A stretch of DNA of 64,000 bases from Deltaproteobacteria bacterium (GTDB lineage: Bacteria > Myxococcota > Myxococcia > Myxococcales > SZAS-1), in contig JAFEBB010000040.1 of NCBI GenBank assembly GCA_018266075.1, positions 1 through 64,000 of the forward strand. Reading direction: 5' to 3'. Below are positions 12,107-18,585 of the stretch, piece after piece. The position numbers and the translations under genes are program-made. Below the pieces are notes generated by a model. That model ran no database searches. It was not told the origin of the DNA and saw nothing but the letters and a program-made list of their open reading frames with translations. Each line of letters starts with the position of its first letter. Position 1 is the first letter of the stretch.

Positions 12107-12203
12107 TCGGCGCTGGGAAGCGCCTCCCACAGACTCACTTTCTCGATTTGGTTGGGAAATCACTGGGAGAACTGAGGTTGTGGGAGGCGCTTCCCAGCGC
12201 CGA
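12107..12203. repeat. REPIN-like inverted-repeat element, copy 1
   Basis: Two perfectly complementary 25-bp arms (12107-12131 and 12179-12203) enclose a 47-bp unique centre. Each arm is itself a mini-hairpin, with GGCGCT and AGCGCC around GGGA. The outer ends are TCGG and CCGA. It lies between the divergent trmJ-like and glycosyltransferase genes. Confidence 0.85.
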
Positions 12204-12272
12204 CTCCCCTCGACTTGGGTGCCGCCCCTTCCCTCGCGCTCCAAGCGACCTAGCTTTTCCTTGGGGGATCGC

Positions 12273-13532
12273 TTGGACACCGTCCCGACGTTGGCAGTGC
12301 CCGTCTCGCCGCCCGTGCGCGCCCGCGAAGCGCGCGTCGACGTGCGCACGCCGCTTCGCGTGCTCGCCGTCCTTCCGGCCGTGCCCTTCCCGAGCAACTC
12401 CGGCGGCCTGCTGCGCTCACTCACCCAGCTTCGCTCCCTCGACGCCCACTTCCAGCTCACCGTGCTCGCGCTCCAGCGCCCGCTGCAGGACGCCGAGGCG
12501 CTTCGACGCTCGCTCACCGCGCGGGTCATCACCGTTCCCTTTCAAGCCGGCGGGCCGGAAGCCATGGCCGCCGAGCTCGGTGCGCTCACCCTGGGCAAGC
12601 CGCTCTTCTACGCGCGCTATGCGCCGCGCGCGCTCGCCCGCGCGCTCGAGGAGGCGCTGCGGAAAGAGCCCTTCGACGTCGTGCACTTCGATCACCTGCA
12701 CACCGCGCAGCTCGTGCCGCTCGTCCGCAAGCTGCAGCCGCGGGCGAGGGTGGTGCTCGATCAGCACAACGTGGAGGCGCAGCTCGTGGAGCGCATGGCT
12801 CCTTTGGCCGCGCCACATCTTCGACTGGGGTTGCGCTGGCAGGCGCGGCGGCTGCGCAAGCTGGAGACCCAGATCGTGCGCGAGGTGGACGCGGTGCTCG
12901 CGTGCTCGTCGCTCGATGCGGCGCAGTTCCACAAGATGGGCGCGCGCTGTGTGGAGGTCGTGCCCAATCCCGCGACGGTGGATGTCCACACGACGGGACG
13001 GCTGCCCCGCCGCGACATCGCCTACGTGGGCTCCTTCGACTGGTGGCCGAACATCGACGCCGCGCTGGTGCTCGCCAAGGACATCTGGCCGCGCTGCGAG
13101 GGCAAGCTCCCCGACGCGCGCTTGATGATCGTGGGCCGCGATCCGCCCGAAGCCATCCTTCAGCTCGCGAGTCCACGGGTGATCGTCACCGGTCGCGTGC
13201 CGAGCGTGGGCCCGTACCTCGACGGCGCGCGTGTGGCGGCCGTTCCATTGCGTGCGGGCTCGGGCACGCGGCTGAAGATCCTCGAGGCCTGGGCGCACGG
13301 CGTGCCCGTGGTGTCGACGCCGCTCGGCGCCGAAGGCCTGCCCGTGCGCGACGGCGAGAACGTGCTCCTCGCCGAGAAGCCCGAGCACTTCGCGCGGGCG
13401 TTGTTACGTGTCTTCGAGGAGCCGTCGTTGGCGGCGCAGCTGACGGAGGGTGCGCTCCGAAGTGCGCGCGCGTATCACCCGGCGAGGATTGGGGAGCAGC
13501 TGGCGGCCTTCTATCGAGAGCGGCTCGGGTAG
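12273..13532 (+). CDS. GT4-family glycosyltransferase
   Basis: A GT-B fold glycosyltransferase of about 419 residues, transferring a sugar from an activated donor onto a glycan or lipid acceptor, probably at the cytoplasmic membrane. The N-terminal half begins LRVLAVLPAVPFPSNSGG, the acceptor-side Rossmann start. The C-terminal half has the donor-site motifs IAYVGSFDWWPN, a loop with AGSGTRLKILEAWAHG and VVSTPLGAEGL, the usual E-x7-E region of GT4. The start is uncertain: no ATG is available, and the TTG at 12273 is chosen because GGGGGA lies just upstream. The frame extends back into repeat copy 1, which is rejected as coding. A second element of that family begins directly after the stop codon. 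Substrate unknown. Confidence 0.8.
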   Translation: MDTVPTLAVPVSPPVRAREARVDVRTPLRVLAVLPAVPFPSNSGGLLRSLTQLRSLDAHFQLTVLALQRPLQDAEALRRSLTARVITVPFQAGGPEAMAAELGALTLGKPLFYARYAPRALARALEEALRKEPFDVVHFDHLHTAQLVPLVRKLQPRARVVLDQHNVEAQLVERMAPLAAPHLRLGLRWQARRLRKLETQIVREVDAVLACSSLDAAQFHKMGARCVEVVPNPATVDVHTTGRLPRRDIAYVGSFDWWPNIDAALVLAKDIWPRCEGKLPDARLMIVGRDPPEAILQLASPRVIVTGRVPSVGPYLDGARVAAVPLRAGSGTRLKILEAWAHGVPVVSTPLGAEGLPVRDGENVLLAEKPEHFARALLRVFEEPSLAAQLTEGALRSARAYHPARIGEQLAAFYRERLG

Positions 13533-13616
13533 TCGGCGCCGGGAAGCGCCTCACAAACTCGAGTGAACCCACCAGCGGGCGAAAGAGGCCTTGTGGGAGG
13601 CGCTTCCCAGCGCCGA
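13533..13616. repeat. REPIN-like inverted-repeat element, copy 2
   Basis: The right arm (13592-13616) is identical to those of copies 1 and 4. The left arm (13533-13557) has a few substitutions. The centre is 34 bp and unrelated to the other copies. The element starts at the base after the glycosyltransferase stop codon. Confidence 0.8.
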
Positions 13617-13759
13617 CAGCTTGCTTGCCCGAGCGTCGTCCATCCAGGCATCAACAATTCCCACCTCTGCCATTTCACAGCCCCAGTGGTCGCCTCCCCG
13701 GCCCTCGCGCGCTCCGGGGCTCGTCCCCACCGTTTTCCCCGGAGGGAAAGGAGAGGACC

Positions 13760-14191
13760 ATGAACATCAAAAAGACTCTGCTCGTGGCCGCCATCGCGGC
13801 CGCGGGGACGGTGGGTGCGGCGACGGCGGCGCGGGCGGCGGATGACGCCAACGTCGATCCGAACATGCAGAACCAGAACCAGCCTGGGATGAACCCCTCG
13901 GGTGCCGACCAGATGAACCAGGGCATGAAGGACCAGGGCATGAAGGAGCAGGGCATGGAGCAGGGCAACCTGCGCGAGGCCACCATCACCGTGCTCAAGG
14001 TCGACAAGGCCACGCACACCGTGACCTTCAAGGCCAAGGTGCAGCCGGAGGCGAACCTCACCAAGGATGGTCAGCCCATCAAGCTCGACCAGCTCAAGGA
14101 AGGCGACCAGGTTCGCGCCAGCTTCGACCCGGCCACGGGCGACGTGAAGAGCCTGGAGGTCAGCCGCAAGGTGAAGGGCGGCGGCATGTAA
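13760..14191 (+). CDS. Exported Met/Gln-rich small protein
   Basis: A 143-residue protein with a clear signal peptide (MNIKKTLLVAAIAAAGT..., cleavage probably after ATAARA). The ATG at 13760 has GGAGAGGACC directly upstream. The mature N-terminus is a low-complexity Met/Gln/Gly region with repeats of the type QGMKDQGMKEQGME (about residues 38-72). The C-terminal 70 residues look like a small beta barrel (ATITVLKVDKATHTVTFKA...KEGDQVRASFDPATG). Met-rich plus small-barrel architecture is seen in periplasmic copper-handling proteins such as CusF, but the characteristic CusF ligands are not evident, so metal binding is speculative. It stands alone between two palindromic elements. Confidence 0.75.
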   Translation: MNIKKTLLVAAIAAAGTVGAATAARAADDANVDPNMQNQNQPGMNPSGADQMNQGMKDQGMKEQGMEQGNLREATITVLKVDKATHTVTFKAKVQPEANLTKDGQPIKLDQLKEGDQVRASFDPATGDVKSLEVSRKVKGGGM

Positions 14192-14267
14192 TCGGAGTCG
14201 TCGCGAGCATTGGCCCGCTGCTGGGTGAAAGCCCGGCAGCGGGCCCTCGCGTTTTCAGGGCGATGTG

Positions 14268-14363
14268 TCGGGGCTTGGAAGCCCCTCCCCACAACACAAG
14301 CCGACGAAGCCGTCCTGACTGCTCGCTCAACTCGAGGTTGTGGGAGGCGCTTCCCAGCGCCGA
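14268..14363. repeat. REPIN-like inverted-repeat element, copy 3
   Basis: The right arm (14339-14363) is identical to the family consensus. The left arm (14268-14293) is diverged, with compensated changes in its internal mini-hairpin (GGGGCTTGGAAGCCCC). The right arm lies inside the 3' end of the minus-strand lipoprotein gene and encodes its last residues. Confidence 0.8.
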
Positions 14364-15034
14364 CGGAGCCCGAGCATCAACACCGCGAAGAGCAGCGCCA
14401 CCAGCACGCCCAGCAGGAACGCGCCCAGCAGCAAGGGCCAGCGCAGCGCGGCCATCGCCCCCTCCATGAAGCCCGCCCCGGCGGTCCGACTGGCCGAGCC
14501 CACGAGCTGGTCCATGCACGTCTGCCGGTCCTTGCCCTGGCAGCGATCGGCGAAGTGCGAAGCCGCTTCGTCGATGCCGCGCGCCGCGCCTTCGGTGGCG
14601 TGCTCCGTCGTGGCCGCGACGCTTCTCGCCAGCGGCCCGTTCCCCTCGGGGCCGAGGACGAGGATGAGCTGTCGTCCCAGGCTCGCGGCGAAGGCGTTGC
14701 CGAACTGGTCGCCGAGCTGCTCGAAGGCCGTCGCATGGATGGCACCTGGCTGACCACCGACCTCCGCTCCGGACCGCGGCGCGAGCAAGGCATCGATCGC
14801 GCCCAGGGAGAGCGTGCCAGCGAGCAAGCGCTGGCGCTCGAGCTGCGGCGGCTGGGTGAGCATCTCCAGCGCGCCCTTGGTGACGTTGTTGGCGATGACC
14901 TCCGTGGGCGCCACACCTGTCTCGGCCTTGGTCTCCTGCGCGGCCTGCAGGGTGCCCTTCGCCGCGCTCTTGCCGAAGAGGGCGCATCCCGTGAGGCCGA
15001 GCAGCACGATCCCCAGGTGTCGACTGCCCGCCAT
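14327..15034 (-). CDS. Membrane-anchored lipoprotein-like protein
   Basis: A 235-residue protein starting MAGSRHLGIVLLGLTGCALF, a lipoprotein signal peptide with lipobox LTGC. The ATG at 15034 has GGGAGG just upstream. The middle is Ala/Gly-rich and helical. A strong hydrophobic segment near the C-terminus (ALRWPLLLGAFLLGVLVALL) would add a second membrane anchor. The final residues RRRWEAPPTTSS are encoded by palindromic element copy 3, so the native C-terminus was probably replaced when that element inserted. Three Cys lie in the mature part, two of them (DRCQGKDRQTCMDQ) possibly paired. No family recognised. Confidence 0.65.
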   Translation of the reverse strand: MAGSRHLGIVLLGLTGCALFGKSAAKGTLQAAQETKAETGVAPTEVIANNVTKGALEMLTQPPQLERQRLLAGTLSLGAIDALLAPRSGAEVGGQPGAIHATAFEQLGDQFGNAFAASLGRQLILVLGPEGNGPLARSVAATTEHATEGAARGIDEAASHFADRCQGKDRQTCMDQLVGSASRTAGAGFMEGAMAALRWPLLLGAFLLGVLVALLFAVLMLGLRRRWEAPPTTSS

Positions 15035-15097
15035 CGCCGCCTCCCGCGCACACGCCCGCTCCAACGCTTGGTCGCCTGCTCGGTTGGCGCAAGGGGA

Positions 15098-16237
15098 CTA
15101 GCCGATGGCGTCGCGCGTGGCGCGGTGGAGCTCGAGGTCCGGCGCGAGCGACTCGCGCGTGCCCAGCGCGCGCACGTACACGCGCGCGTAGGCCTCGGCC
15201 ATGGCCTTGGCGTCGTGCCGCGCGTGGACGGCCTCGTGCAGCTGGGCTGCGCGTGCCTCGCGCAGCTTGGGATCCGAAAAGAGCCGCTCGAGCTCGCGCG
15301 CCAGGTCGTCCACTTCGCCCGGCTCGATGAGCGCGTTCGCCTCCGGACCGAAGAGCTGCTCGAGATCGCCCACCCGCGTGGCGATCAACGGACGACGATG
15401 CAGTCCCGCCTCGAGCGCCACCAGCGGCGACGCCTCTCGCAGCGACGGCATCACGATCACGTCGGCTGCCGCGTAGAGCTGCCGCGTGTTCGACACGAAG
15501 CCGAGAAGCCGAACGGGCAGGGTGCCCGCGAGCTGCGCGAGCTCGTCACGAAGCGGACCATCACCGGCGAAGAGCGTCAGCGGCGGCTGCTTCAGCTTCG
15601 ACAGCGCTTCGATCAGCGTGCGCTGGCCCTTCTCCGGCGAGAGCCGTCCGATGCACGCGAGCACCGGCGCCTGGGCATCGAGCTTGAGCGCGTGCCGCGC
15701 GGCTCGGCGTTCGGACTCACCCGGCGGCGCAAGGTCATCCAAGCCATTCGGAATGAGCTCGACCGGCGCCGTCTTCACCCAGCGTGAAAGCCGCTGCTGC
15801 AGACTGCGCGACGGCGCCACGACGCCTCGCGTGCGGTTTCCGAGAAGCCGCCCGTACGCTTCGTACGCGCGCAGCTTGAGTCCAGCAGCGGTGTCGCCGT
15901 GGTACGTCGCGACGACTGGAACGCCCTCGCGTCGGGCGGCCCGCAGCCCGAGCGCGAGGCTCTTGAAGTCGTGCGCGTGAACGAGATCCACGCTTGCCCA
16001 GTGAATGAACCGCGCGATGCGCCGCGCACACGCGAGATCCAGGCGGCGATCGAACGTGAACCGCTGCGCGTCGAGCCCGCGCTTCATGGCCTCGTCGACG
16101 AGCGCGGACTCCTCGTCGGGCCCGAGCGCGCCCACGATGGCTTGAAACGGCGCTCTCGTCGCAGGGGCCAGCGCGAGCAGCGCCCGATCCGCGCCGTACA
16201 GGCCGCTCCCCGACCGCAAGTGCAAGACCGTGATCAC
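15098..16237 (-). CDS. GT4-family glycosyltransferase
   Basis: A 379-residue GT-B glycosyltransferase. The N-terminal domain begins ITVLHLRSGSGLYGADRALL, and HAHDFKS near residue 90 is a typical acceptor-domain motif. The donor domain shows CIGRLSPEKGQRTLIEA, LFAGDGPLRDEL and the GT4 E-x7-E region in PSLREASPLVALEAGL. Its GTG start overlaps the stop of the upstream glycosyltransferase (GTGA), so the two are translationally coupled and probably act on the same glycan. There is no signal peptide; a cytoplasmic enzyme acting at the membrane is expected. Sugar and acceptor cannot be deduced. Confidence 0.88.
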   Translation of the reverse strand: MITVLHLRSGSGLYGADRALLALAPATRAPFQAIVGALGPDEESALVDEAMKRGLDAQRFTFDRRLDLACARRIARFIHWASVDLVHAHDFKSLALGLRAARREGVPVVATYHGDTAAGLKLRAYEAYGRLLGNRTRGVVAPSRSLQQRLSRWVKTAPVELIPNGLDDLAPPGESERRAARHALKLDAQAPVLACIGRLSPEKGQRTLIEALSKLKQPPLTLFAGDGPLRDELAQLAGTLPVRLLGFVSNTRQLYAAADVIVMPSLREASPLVALEAGLHRRPLIATRVGDLEQLFGPEANALIEPGEVDDLARELERLFSDPKLREARAAQLHEAVHARHDAKAMAEAYARVYVRALGTRESLAPDLELHRATRDAIG

Positions 16238-17358
16238 GCGTGCACCTCGCTGGGCAACGGCGCGCGCAACGCGAGCGCGCGATAGAGATCGGCGTAGGCG
16301 CAGAGCGTCGTGTTGAAGTCGAAGCGCTGGCTGGCGTTCATCGCGGCCTCGCCGAGCCGCGCGCGAAGCGAAGCGTCGCCGACGAGCTCCGTCAACGCGT
16401 GCTGCAGCTTCTCCGCATGGCGCAACGGCACGAGCCGCGCCGTCGACGCGGTGTGAATCTCGCGAACGCCGGGCAGGTCATGGGCGATCGTCGGCAGCCC
16501 GACGGCCATCGCCTCGAGCATCGCCAGCGAGCGTCCTTCGGTGAGCGAGGTCTGCGCGTAGAGGTCGAAGCCCGGCAGCAGCTCGCGCGCATCCACGATC
16601 GCGCCGAGGACATGCACGTTCGCGTGGCCCTTCGCCTGCGCGCGCAAGATGCCTTCCATCGGCCCGGGACCGACGAGCGCCAGGTGCACCTCCGCACGAT
16701 TCGCGAATGCAGCCAGGAACGCCTGCAGCAGGAGATCGGGCCCTTTCACTTCCGCCATCCGCCCGAGGTAGCCGACGACGATGGCGTCGTGCGGAAGGCC
16801 GAGTCGCTCGCGCGCGTGCGCCCGCGAGGCCTCGCTCGGCGGCGGCGGGAGGTGAACGCCATTGCCGATGGTGATGACGCGCGGATGTCCGGGCAGCCAG
16901 GTGTCGAGCATCGTGCGCACCTCCGAGCCGCACGCCACGAGCGCATTCGCACGCATGGCCGCAGCGCGCGCGGCGAGCCGCATCGCGCCCGTGGGCGACT
17001 CCAGCTGGTGAAACGTGGCCACCAGCGGCTTCCCCGGTCGCAGCGCGCACACGGCGGCGCCGTTGAGCAGCGGCCCGAGATCGTGGGCGTGGAGCACGTC
17101 GGCGTCGAAGGTCGAGAGCGCCTGGTGCACCTCGCCCAGCATCGACGGCCGCATCCCCGCGCTCGGAATCCATCGCGTGGGCACGCCGCGCGCACCCGCG
17201 GCCGCACGCATCGGGCCGTCGGGACCGAAGGAGATGATGAGCGACTCGAGACCTGCGGCGCGCCCCTCGACGCAGAGCTGCACCACGAGCTGTTCCAGCC
17301 CGCCCAGCGTCCAGCCGTAGATGAGGTGCGCGATGCGGAGGGGCCGTTCGCGTGTCAT
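16234..17358 (-). CDS. GT4-family glycosyltransferase
   Basis: A 374-residue GT-B enzyme, first gene of a coupled pair. The N-terminus LRIAHLIYGWTLGGLEQLVV is the common GT4 opening with its Gly-rich loop. HAHDLGPLLNG and a His-containing FHQL lie in the acceptor domain. VVGYLGRMAEVKGPDLLLQA, LVGPGPMEGIL and SLTEGRSLAMLEAMAVGLP make up the donor site with the E-x7-E pattern. The ATG at 17358 is preferred because upstream in-frame codons run through a C-rich repeat (17362-17412). It is divergent from purC. Together with the downstream enzyme it suggests a small polysaccharide or glycolipid pathway. Confidence 0.87.
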   Translation of the reverse strand: MTRERPLRIAHLIYGWTLGGLEQLVVQLCVEGRAAGLESLIISFGPDGPMRAAAGARGVPTRWIPSAGMRPSMLGEVHQALSTFDADVLHAHDLGPLLNGAAVCALRPGKPLVATFHQLESPTGAMRLAARAAAMRANALVACGSEVRTMLDTWLPGHPRVITIGNGVHLPPPPSEASRAHARERLGLPHDAIVVGYLGRMAEVKGPDLLLQAFLAAFANRAEVHLALVGPGPMEGILRAQAKGHANVHVLGAIVDARELLPGFDLYAQTSLTEGRSLAMLEAMAVGLPTIAHDLPGVREIHTASTARLVPLRHAEKLQHALTELVGDASLRARLGEAAMNASQRFDFNTTLCAYADLYRALALRAPLPSEVHA

Positions 17359-17361
17359 CGC

Positions 17362-17412
17362 CCCCATCTCCCCGAACCCCTTCCCCGACTCGAGCGGGGA
17401 AGGGGAGTCCAC
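17362..17412. repeat. C-rich palindromic repeat, third unit
   Basis: It has the same arrangement as the left unit at 10992-11037: CCCATCTCCCC followed by an 11-bp stem (CCCCTTCCCCG/CGGGGAAGGGG) around a short loop that differs in sequence. Unlike the other units it lies in the space between divergent genes, next to a start codon, so it cannot serve only as a terminator. Confidence 0.7.
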
Positions 17413-17533
17413 GTGCGATTCCAGGCGGTCCAGCCCCTCGCCGGGCCTCCGAGCCGCTCCCAGAAAGGTACGCATCGTCGACGGATTCGAAAGTCACGCC
17501 GCCGCGTCCGGGCCTGGCTAGACTTCGCCCGCC

Positions 17534-18496
17534 ATGGACCACCTCGAACGCGTCCGAAGCCAGCTGCCGCACACCCTCCGCGAGACCAACTTCGCGACCG
17601 CCGGGGAGCTGTACCGCGGCAAGGTCCGCGACGTTTACAAGCAAGCCGATCGTCTCCTGCTGGTCACCACCGATCGCATCTCGGCCTTTGATCACGTGCT
17701 CGGAACCATTCCCTTCAAGGGCGAGCTGCTCACTCGGCTGGCCGCGTTCTGGTTCGAGAAGACCAAGGACGTGTGCAAGAGCCACCTCCTCGACGTGCCC
17801 GATCCGAACGTGCTCGTCGGCAAGCCCACGAACGCGATCGCCGTCGAGGTCGTGGTGCGCGGGTACCTCACCGGCTCGCTCTGGCGCGACTACGTGGCGA
17901 AGAAGCACGGCGTGTACGGCGTGCCCATCCCCGATGGCATGAAGAAGGACCAGGCCTTCGAGCGCCCGATCATCACGCCGGCCACCAAGGAAGCGGTCGG
18001 CAAGCACGACGAGCCGACCTCCGGCGAGGACCTGGTTCAGCGCGGCGTGCTCGACGCGAAGACCTGGGATGCGTGCTGCGAAAAGGCGCTCGCGCTCTTC
18101 GCGGCGGGGCAGGCCTGGGCCAAGACGCAAGGCCTCATCTTCGTGGACACGAAGTACGAGTTCGGGCTCGCGGGCAACGAGCTCATCGTCATCGACGAGA
18201 TCCACACCATGGACAGCTCGCGCTACTGGGAGGCGAGCGAGTACGAAGCGCGCTTCGCCAAGGGCGACGACCAGCGCATGCTCGACAAGGAGAACGTGCG
18301 CCAGTGGCTCATCCGCGAGAAGGGCTTCGACGGCCACGGGACGCCGCCGCCGATCGATGACGCGATTCGCACGGAGATCGCGCTCACGTACATCAAGGCA
18401 TTCGAGCGGATCACCGGGCAGAAGTTCGAGAGCGCGCCGGGTGATGTGACGCCGAGGTTGGAGAAGAACCTGCGGGCGAAGGGATATCTGCGCTGA
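17534..18496 (+). CDS. purC: Phosphoribosylaminoimidazole-succinocarboxamide synthase
   Basis: SAICAR synthetase, which joins aspartate to CAIR using ATP in purine synthesis. It is 320 residues long, typical of the longer PurC type. Recognisable segments: YRGKVRDVYKQADRLLLVTT and DRISAFD near the N-terminus (nucleotide and substrate binding), VVVRGYLTGSLWRDY (substrate loop), GLIFVDTKYEFGL and IDEIHTMDSSRYW (metal-binding acidic region). It is divergent from the glycosyltransferase pair. Its stop codon is followed after 3 bp by palindromic element copy 4, which fills the gap to the convergent HD-GYP gene. Confidence 0.97.
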   Translation: MDHLERVRSQLPHTLRETNFATAGELYRGKVRDVYKQADRLLLVTTDRISAFDHVLGTIPFKGELLTRLAAFWFEKTKDVCKSHLLDVPDPNVLVGKPTNAIAVEVVVRGYLTGSLWRDYVAKKHGVYGVPIPDGMKKDQAFERPIITPATKEAVGKHDEPTSGEDLVQRGVLDAKTWDACCEKALALFAAGQAWAKTQGLIFVDTKYEFGLAGNELIVIDEIHTMDSSRYWEASEYEARFAKGDDQRMLDKENVRQWLIREKGFDGHGTPPPIDDAIRTEIALTYIKAFERITGQKFESAPGDVTPRLEKNLRAKGYLR

Positions 18497-18499
18497 ATG

Positions 18500-18585
18500 T
18501 CGGCGCTGGGAAGCGCCTCCCACAGGGCCTCTTTCACCAATTGATGTGTCCAACAGGGTTTGTGGGAGGCGCTTCCCAGCGCCGA
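18500..18585. repeat. REPIN-like inverted-repeat element, copy 4
   Basis: Perfect 25-bp arms (18500-18524 and 18561-18585) enclose a 36-bp centre. The arms are identical to those of copy 1, while the centre differs. It occupies nearly the whole 93-bp gap between two convergent stop codons, so it is well placed to act as a bidirectional terminator. Confidence 0.85.

Follow-up and report, generated by a model that had tools for sequence, protein, structure and literature searches.

GTGG-headed REP dimers and a resident RAYT gene in a myxobacterial genome

Repetitive extragenic palindromic (REP) sequences and their REP-associated tyrosine transposases (RAYTs) are best known from gammaproteobacteria. 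No myxobacterial REP/RAYT system is described in the literature searched. Among the closest described systems are the GTAG/GTGG REPtrons, for example those of Pseudomonas fluorescens, with which the genome analysed here has in common a high copy number, an extragenic location, inverted pairs and a RAYT gene between inverted REPs (PMC2817692, PMC3116915). The TnpA_REP proteins of Escherichia coli and Stenotrophomonas serve as models for REP binding, nicking and joining (PMC8266576). We analysed a window of 64,000 nucleotides from a myxobacterial assembly (contig JAFEBB010000040.1 of GCA_018266075.1) which contains four short inverted-repeat elements. They represent a new family of this well-known kind of bacterial repeat. 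We consider it highly probable that the four elements are REP dimers, non-autonomous units of the BIME (bacterial interspersed mosaic element)/REPIN type from a GTGG-headed family, which are dispersed in trans by the RAYT encoded in the same genome.

The arm of these elements, TGTGGGAGGCGCTTCCCAGCGCCGAC (5′ to 3′), consists of the tetranucleotide GTGG, two bases, and a GGCGCT/AGCGCC stem with a TCCC loop. Each element contains two inverted arms, with both GTGG heads pointing to the centre. In the following list, F1 denotes the arm family of the window type, and dimers are given without strand.

12107..12203, REP dimer copy 1 (tail-tail), with divergent genes on either side: SpoU-type methylase (minus strand, start ~12087) and glycosyltransferase (plus strand)
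12107..12131, minus strand, left REP arm of copy 1, perfect F1 consensus
12179..12203, plus strand, right REP arm of copy 1, perfect F1 consensus
13533..13616, REP dimer copy 2, beginning immediately past the TAG stop of the glycosyltransferase gene (end 13532)
13533..13557, minus strand, left REP arm of copy 2, degenerate, with a loop/stem change and with bases deleted close to the head
13592..13616, plus strand, right REP arm of copy 2, perfect
14268..14363, REP dimer copy 3, amid convergent gene ends
14268..14292, minus strand, left REP arm of copy 3, degenerate; stem GGGGCT/AGCCCC (compensatory change)
14339..14363, plus strand, right REP arm of copy 3, perfect
18500..18585, REP dimer copy 4, with convergent genes on either side: SAICAR synthetase (plus strand, end 18496) and an HD-GYP-type gene (minus strand, end 18590)
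18500..18524, minus strand, left REP arm of copy 4, perfect
18561..18585, plus strand, right REP arm of copy 4, perfect

The four elements had been delineated in a sequence-only reading of the window, and they stand far above chance. When an 18-base arm core is searched with up to 3 mismatches, the window yields 9 matches (0.56 expected), 8 of which are inside the four elements, and none of 100 shuffles of the window attains this number. As that reading had stated, the arms of copies 1 and 4 are perfectly complementary (25-26 bp) and the right arms of all four copies are identical; degeneration is seen in the left arms of copies 2 and 3. Its mini-hairpins are also borne out, as every single arm folds as a 6-bp hairpin with the loop TCCC. 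Folding of the whole elements as single-stranded DNA gave z-scores against shuffles of -13.6, -4.7, -4.6 and -10.8 for copies 1 to 4. A search of the window against Rfam matched a tRNA alone.

The elements are not confined to the window. In the genome that contains it (7.84 Mb in 166 contigs, 96.6% complete), 54 arm matches with up to 3 mismatches were found, and none with a reversed pattern used as control. A covariance model of the arm gave 78 matches at E<=1, of which we kept 73, the strong ones and three weak ones adjoining strong ones. These arms, which are spread over more than 25 contigs, form two related families. The 57 arms of F1 mostly have a GTGG head and a 4-nt loop. The 16 arms of F2, the GTGGTGGAT-GTAGGAGG type, carry GTGGTGGAT immediately 5′ of a GTAG-type head (GTAG and variants), have more varied stems and are likewise dispersed. 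Some arms are intermediate: one combines a GTAG head with an F1 stem (C27:54883; contigs are designated by C and a number), another a GTGG head with a 3-nt loop (C10:18914), and a third is an F1 arm with an F2-like flank (C32:55096). Arms of the two families are neighbours at four places (C18, C22, C27, C85), where by our own arithmetic about 0.05 would be expected. Of the 194 further genomes from this phylum, none has an F1-type arm (up to 1 mismatch), as is expected of a lineage-specific dispersed family, and viral contigs, plasmids and phages yielded none either.

Covariation in the stem indicates that the hairpin of the arm has been kept and not the sequence alone. Among 32 distinct arms, the third stem pair has changed from C-G to G-C in 8 sequences, and 96.8% of cells are paired. 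The covariation score is 0.205 compared to 0.089 for shuffled alignments; 0 of 500 shuffles attain it, and slid controls reach at most 0.05. Thus, the arms have the anatomy of REPs, with a GT(A/G)G tetranucleotide 5′ of a short GC-rich palindrome, and like REPs they exist as many dispersed copies which are chiefly extragenic.

The arms are paired with a fixed polarity. Among neighbours within 200 bp, 19 pairs are tail-tail (heads inward), 1 is head-head and 5 are tandem (head-tail), while 0.17 would be expected randomly. Of the 73 arms, 26 are solo. The centres of the four window elements have lengths of 47, 34, 46 and 36 bp, in agreement with the range of 34-47 bp given in the sequence-only reading. 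That reading also took the centres to be simply different, and this we reject because they have a degenerate consensus in common: throughout the genome, the head-side ~20 nt of F1 dimer arms share CCAATTTGNCGAAGTGGGTTT. The inner 26 nt of these arms hold 11.8 bits of information compared to 3.6 +/- 0.24 when shuffled, whereas the outer flank past CCGAC holds almost none and the outer flanks are unrelated. The element is therefore sharply bounded, with ...CCGAC as the outer end of the unit. All centres go back to one degenerate sequence, from which they have diverged, and they are roughly palindromic; the dimer is accordingly a homologous unit. Solo arms hold far less of the inner consensus, and the head side of solo F1 arms shows no trace of a lost partner.

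Where F1 dimers are asymmetric, the degenerate arm is nearly always the left one in contig orientation and the right arm is perfect. Contig orientation ought to be arbitrary, and the pattern may be due to chance. We found no explanation in a replication-strand bias of arm orientation, the GC skew being too weak for strand assignment.

Two genes for Y1_Tnp proteins are present in the genome. One, on C28, codes for an IS200-type transposase (NF033573, 127 bits) and has no REP arms in the surrounding 7 kb. The other (C10:16821-17231) is a RAYT gene: it matches NF047646 with 119 bits (cut-off 80) and stays with 34 bits under the cut-off of 55 for the IS200 profile. In the PDB its product matches a single protein, E. 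coli TnpA_REP (4er8), to which it aligns at both the HVH motif and the catalytic tyrosine. The best sequence matches, at ~40% identity, are Pseudomonas RAYTs, and these have REPs with the head TGTGGGAGG on their flanks; a tree gives no clear deep placement. When the genome was searched for a second RAYT at E<=1, the IS200-type gene was matched, and otherwise there were only two marginal matches with less than 12 bits.

The RAYT gene lies between two inverted repeats of 37 bp each, CGTGGTGGATGTAGGAGGCGTTTC(C/T)AACGCCGACCG, which are separated by 475 bp. These are F2 REP arms with their heads inward, the same polarity as in the window dimers. One of them lies ~12 bp upstream of the start codon; at its 3′ end, the reading frame runs into the other. 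For F2, this is the arrangement of a REPtron, a RAYT gene between two inverted REPs of a dispersed family. For F1 the assignment follows solely from its relatedness to F2 and from the places where F1 and F2 arms are neighbours. Two F1 dimers are located 1.5-2.5 kb from the RAYT gene. The sequence-only reading had named many paired copies together with a RAYT gene as the outcome that would support it, and ~73 arms, 19 inverted pairs and one RAYT flanked by REP arms are what we encountered. A separate GTAG-type REPtron was seen in a genome of the same order but another family (G019, locus L143), where a perfect inverted repeat of 29 bp, ACGTAGGGCGGGGCCTTGTGCCCCGCCAT, encloses a RAYT-like gene (NF047646, 106 bits). 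Elsewhere in the genome with the window, the product of a neighbouring gene is a metalloprotease of the MYXO-CTERM, myxosortase-dependent type (NF041905, 261 bits, cut-off 250), which points to a myxobacterium as the organism.

A repeat missing from the assembly breaks F2 REPs at a single point. The sequence GTGGTGGATGTAGGAG followed by CAACTGTAATCAACGCGATGCAGCC occurs at four contig ends (C1:1-50, C8:1-50, C85:30364-30447 and C121:54-96; loci L172, L173, L179 and L107), and ...CACGCCCTATAAGCAAG runs into GGGCTTCC(A)AGCCCCGAC at the end of C91, at the start of C112 and at C18:43841 (L226, L227 and L039). This repeat resembles an insertion sequence with REPs as its target sites, and such targeting is known (PMC1525189). 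For the sole IS110-type gene (C10:74551), no link to these contig ends could be established.

By analogy to the E. coli and Stenotrophomonas proteins, the RAYT, a single-strand transposase of the HUH type, would bind single-stranded DNA at the folded REP hairpin and the GT(A/G)G head next to it. Its tyrosine would nick close to the bound REP, and the strands would then be rejoined at other sites, mainly intergenic ones. The elements are probably mobile. As the arms that flank the RAYT gene belong to F2, we infer its action on F1, and it is likely that the same enzyme also moves the window family.

Several points weigh against this reading. The arms around the gene are of the GTAG type (F2) and not of the GTGG type (F1), with a 3-nt loop in place of the 4-nt loop of F1, and RAYTs are usually family-specific where a species has several REP families (PMC3733652). 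With 73 arms, the copy number is modest. Solo and paired F1 arms are equally decayed, with mean differences of 0.94 and 0.91 (p=0.44; a small sample of 16 solo and 34 paired arms). The last point also bears on the name. The REPIN definition of Bertels and Rainey (2011) expects over-represented inverted doublets which form a long hairpin, as found here, and doublets that are more conserved than singlets, which these elements lack. "REPIN-like", as the sequence-only reading put it, is a fair description; the inverted doublets and the RAYT gene agree with it, while the conservation pattern sets the elements apart from strict REPINs.

It is possible, though less likely, that F1 was spread by another transposase, such as a further RAYT with GTGG specificity, whose gene has since been lost or is missing from the assembly, and that the F2-flanked RAYT is inactive on F1. 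The mismatch in head and loop and the usual family specificity of RAYTs speak for it, and the incomplete assembly would leave room for such a gene. It is countered by the absence of a second RAYT among all but marginal matches at E<=1, by the intermediate arms and by the places where F1 and F2 arms are neighbours. A speculative extension, for which we see only a small chance, is that one RAYT maintains both the GTAG and the GTGG family in spite of their different heads and loop sizes, that the young GTGG family arose when the head of the older GTAG family was switched, and that host genes have also taken over inserted arms as their stop codons and 3′ ends. If true, this would be a natural case where the DNA guide of a transposase has changed while mobility was kept.

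The gene context, determined with a simple home-made gene finder on the stretches around the arms, is relevant to a further alternative. Of 48 arm clusters, 42 lie outside genes, in a sequence that is ~89% coding; 13 are in convergent, 21 in codirectional and 7 in divergent gaps. In the window, copies 2 to 4 adjoin 3′ ends of genes, as had been claimed for gene ends or starts in general, and the last residues of the minus-strand open reading frame (ORF) 14327-15034 are encoded by the right arm of copy 3; for copy 1 we specify a position between two divergent gene starts, those of the rRNA-methylase-type gene and the glycosyltransferase gene. All four F1 dimers which have CTAG instead of CTGG in the left-arm loop provide with this TAG the stop codon of the preceding gene (L035:2889-2898, L033:7284-7293, L040:2325-2334, L041:2655-2664). 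It seems that genes have taken over inserted arms as their ends. In the window, 15-bp tandem repeats (GATGAACCAGGGCATGAAG type) at 13912-13960 lead to a Met/Gln-rich stretch in the small ORF 13760-14191.

One might regard the dimers as signals at gene ends which act in RNA or DNA and were selected by the host (mRNA 3′-end stabilisers, bidirectional terminators or insulators against transcription collision), and not as mobile elements. Three of the four window copies adjoin stop codons, strong hairpins are formed, four left arms supply a stop codon, and the share of convergent gaps is 13 of 42 for extragenic clusters compared to 33 of 181 for background gaps. We nevertheless judge this improbable. 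A terminator role, which had been suggested for the window copies, is unsupported because there is no T-tract; none of the four copies coincides with a terminator-like site, and the region has as many such sites as its shuffles. Copy 1 and six further clusters lie in divergent (5′) regions. Dispersal fits better with the near-identical arms, the defined outer ends, the RAYT with like arms and the restriction to one genome. A host role of the elements at gene 3′ ends is unproven, and use by the host after insertion is possible. The nearest relatives compared (40-60 genomes) are of the same order at most, none being of the same genus or family. In 29 relative loci for copy 4, the HD-GYP gene is never beside the SAICAR synthetase gene, and these relatives have ~60% protein identity.

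That the four copies within 6.5 kb are ordinary intergenic inverted repeats which arose by chance or local duplication is practically negligible and was rejected, considering the matches over the whole genome by arm and covariance model, the pairing counts, the shuffles and the unrelated outer flanks.

The window repeat is ordinary in kind. With its one RAYT, its intermediate arms between two related REP families and a single defined dimer polarity, the genome is a small system in which the GTAG-guide model of REP recognition can be tested.

The GI REP of P. fluorescens, GTGGGAGGGGGCTTGCCCCCGAT (PMC2817692, PMC3116915), shares with the arms described here the GT(A/G)G head, the short GC-rich palindrome and a loop of 2-4 nt. 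The head TGTGGGAGG is the same as in the Pseudomonas type, and Pseudomonas RAYTs are the best sequence matches of the RAYT. The system differs from Pseudomonas REPs in its stem (GGCGCT-TCCC-AGCGCC), in having ~73 copies and not hundreds, in its myxobacterial host and in a RAYT that is flanked by arms of a sister family. Tail-tail (TT) REP dimers (PMC3733652) are a further close system, from which the elements differ in that their variable spacers retain a common degenerate sequence beside both arms. With the REPINs of P. fluorescens SBW25 (PMC3116915) the elements have in common inverted REP doublets with a spacer, a long hairpin, a unit that is larger than one REP and the presence of a RAYT. 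They differ in that the heads point inward, which is the opposite polarity according to our reading of the published SBW25 16-mers, and in that solo arms are no more diverged than paired ones. Derivatives of IS200/IS605 that resemble miniature inverted-repeat transposable elements also have a Y1 HUH transposase, hairpin ends and arms around a transposase gene or a short spacer, but the transposase encoded here is of the RAYT family (NF047646) and not of the IS200 type.

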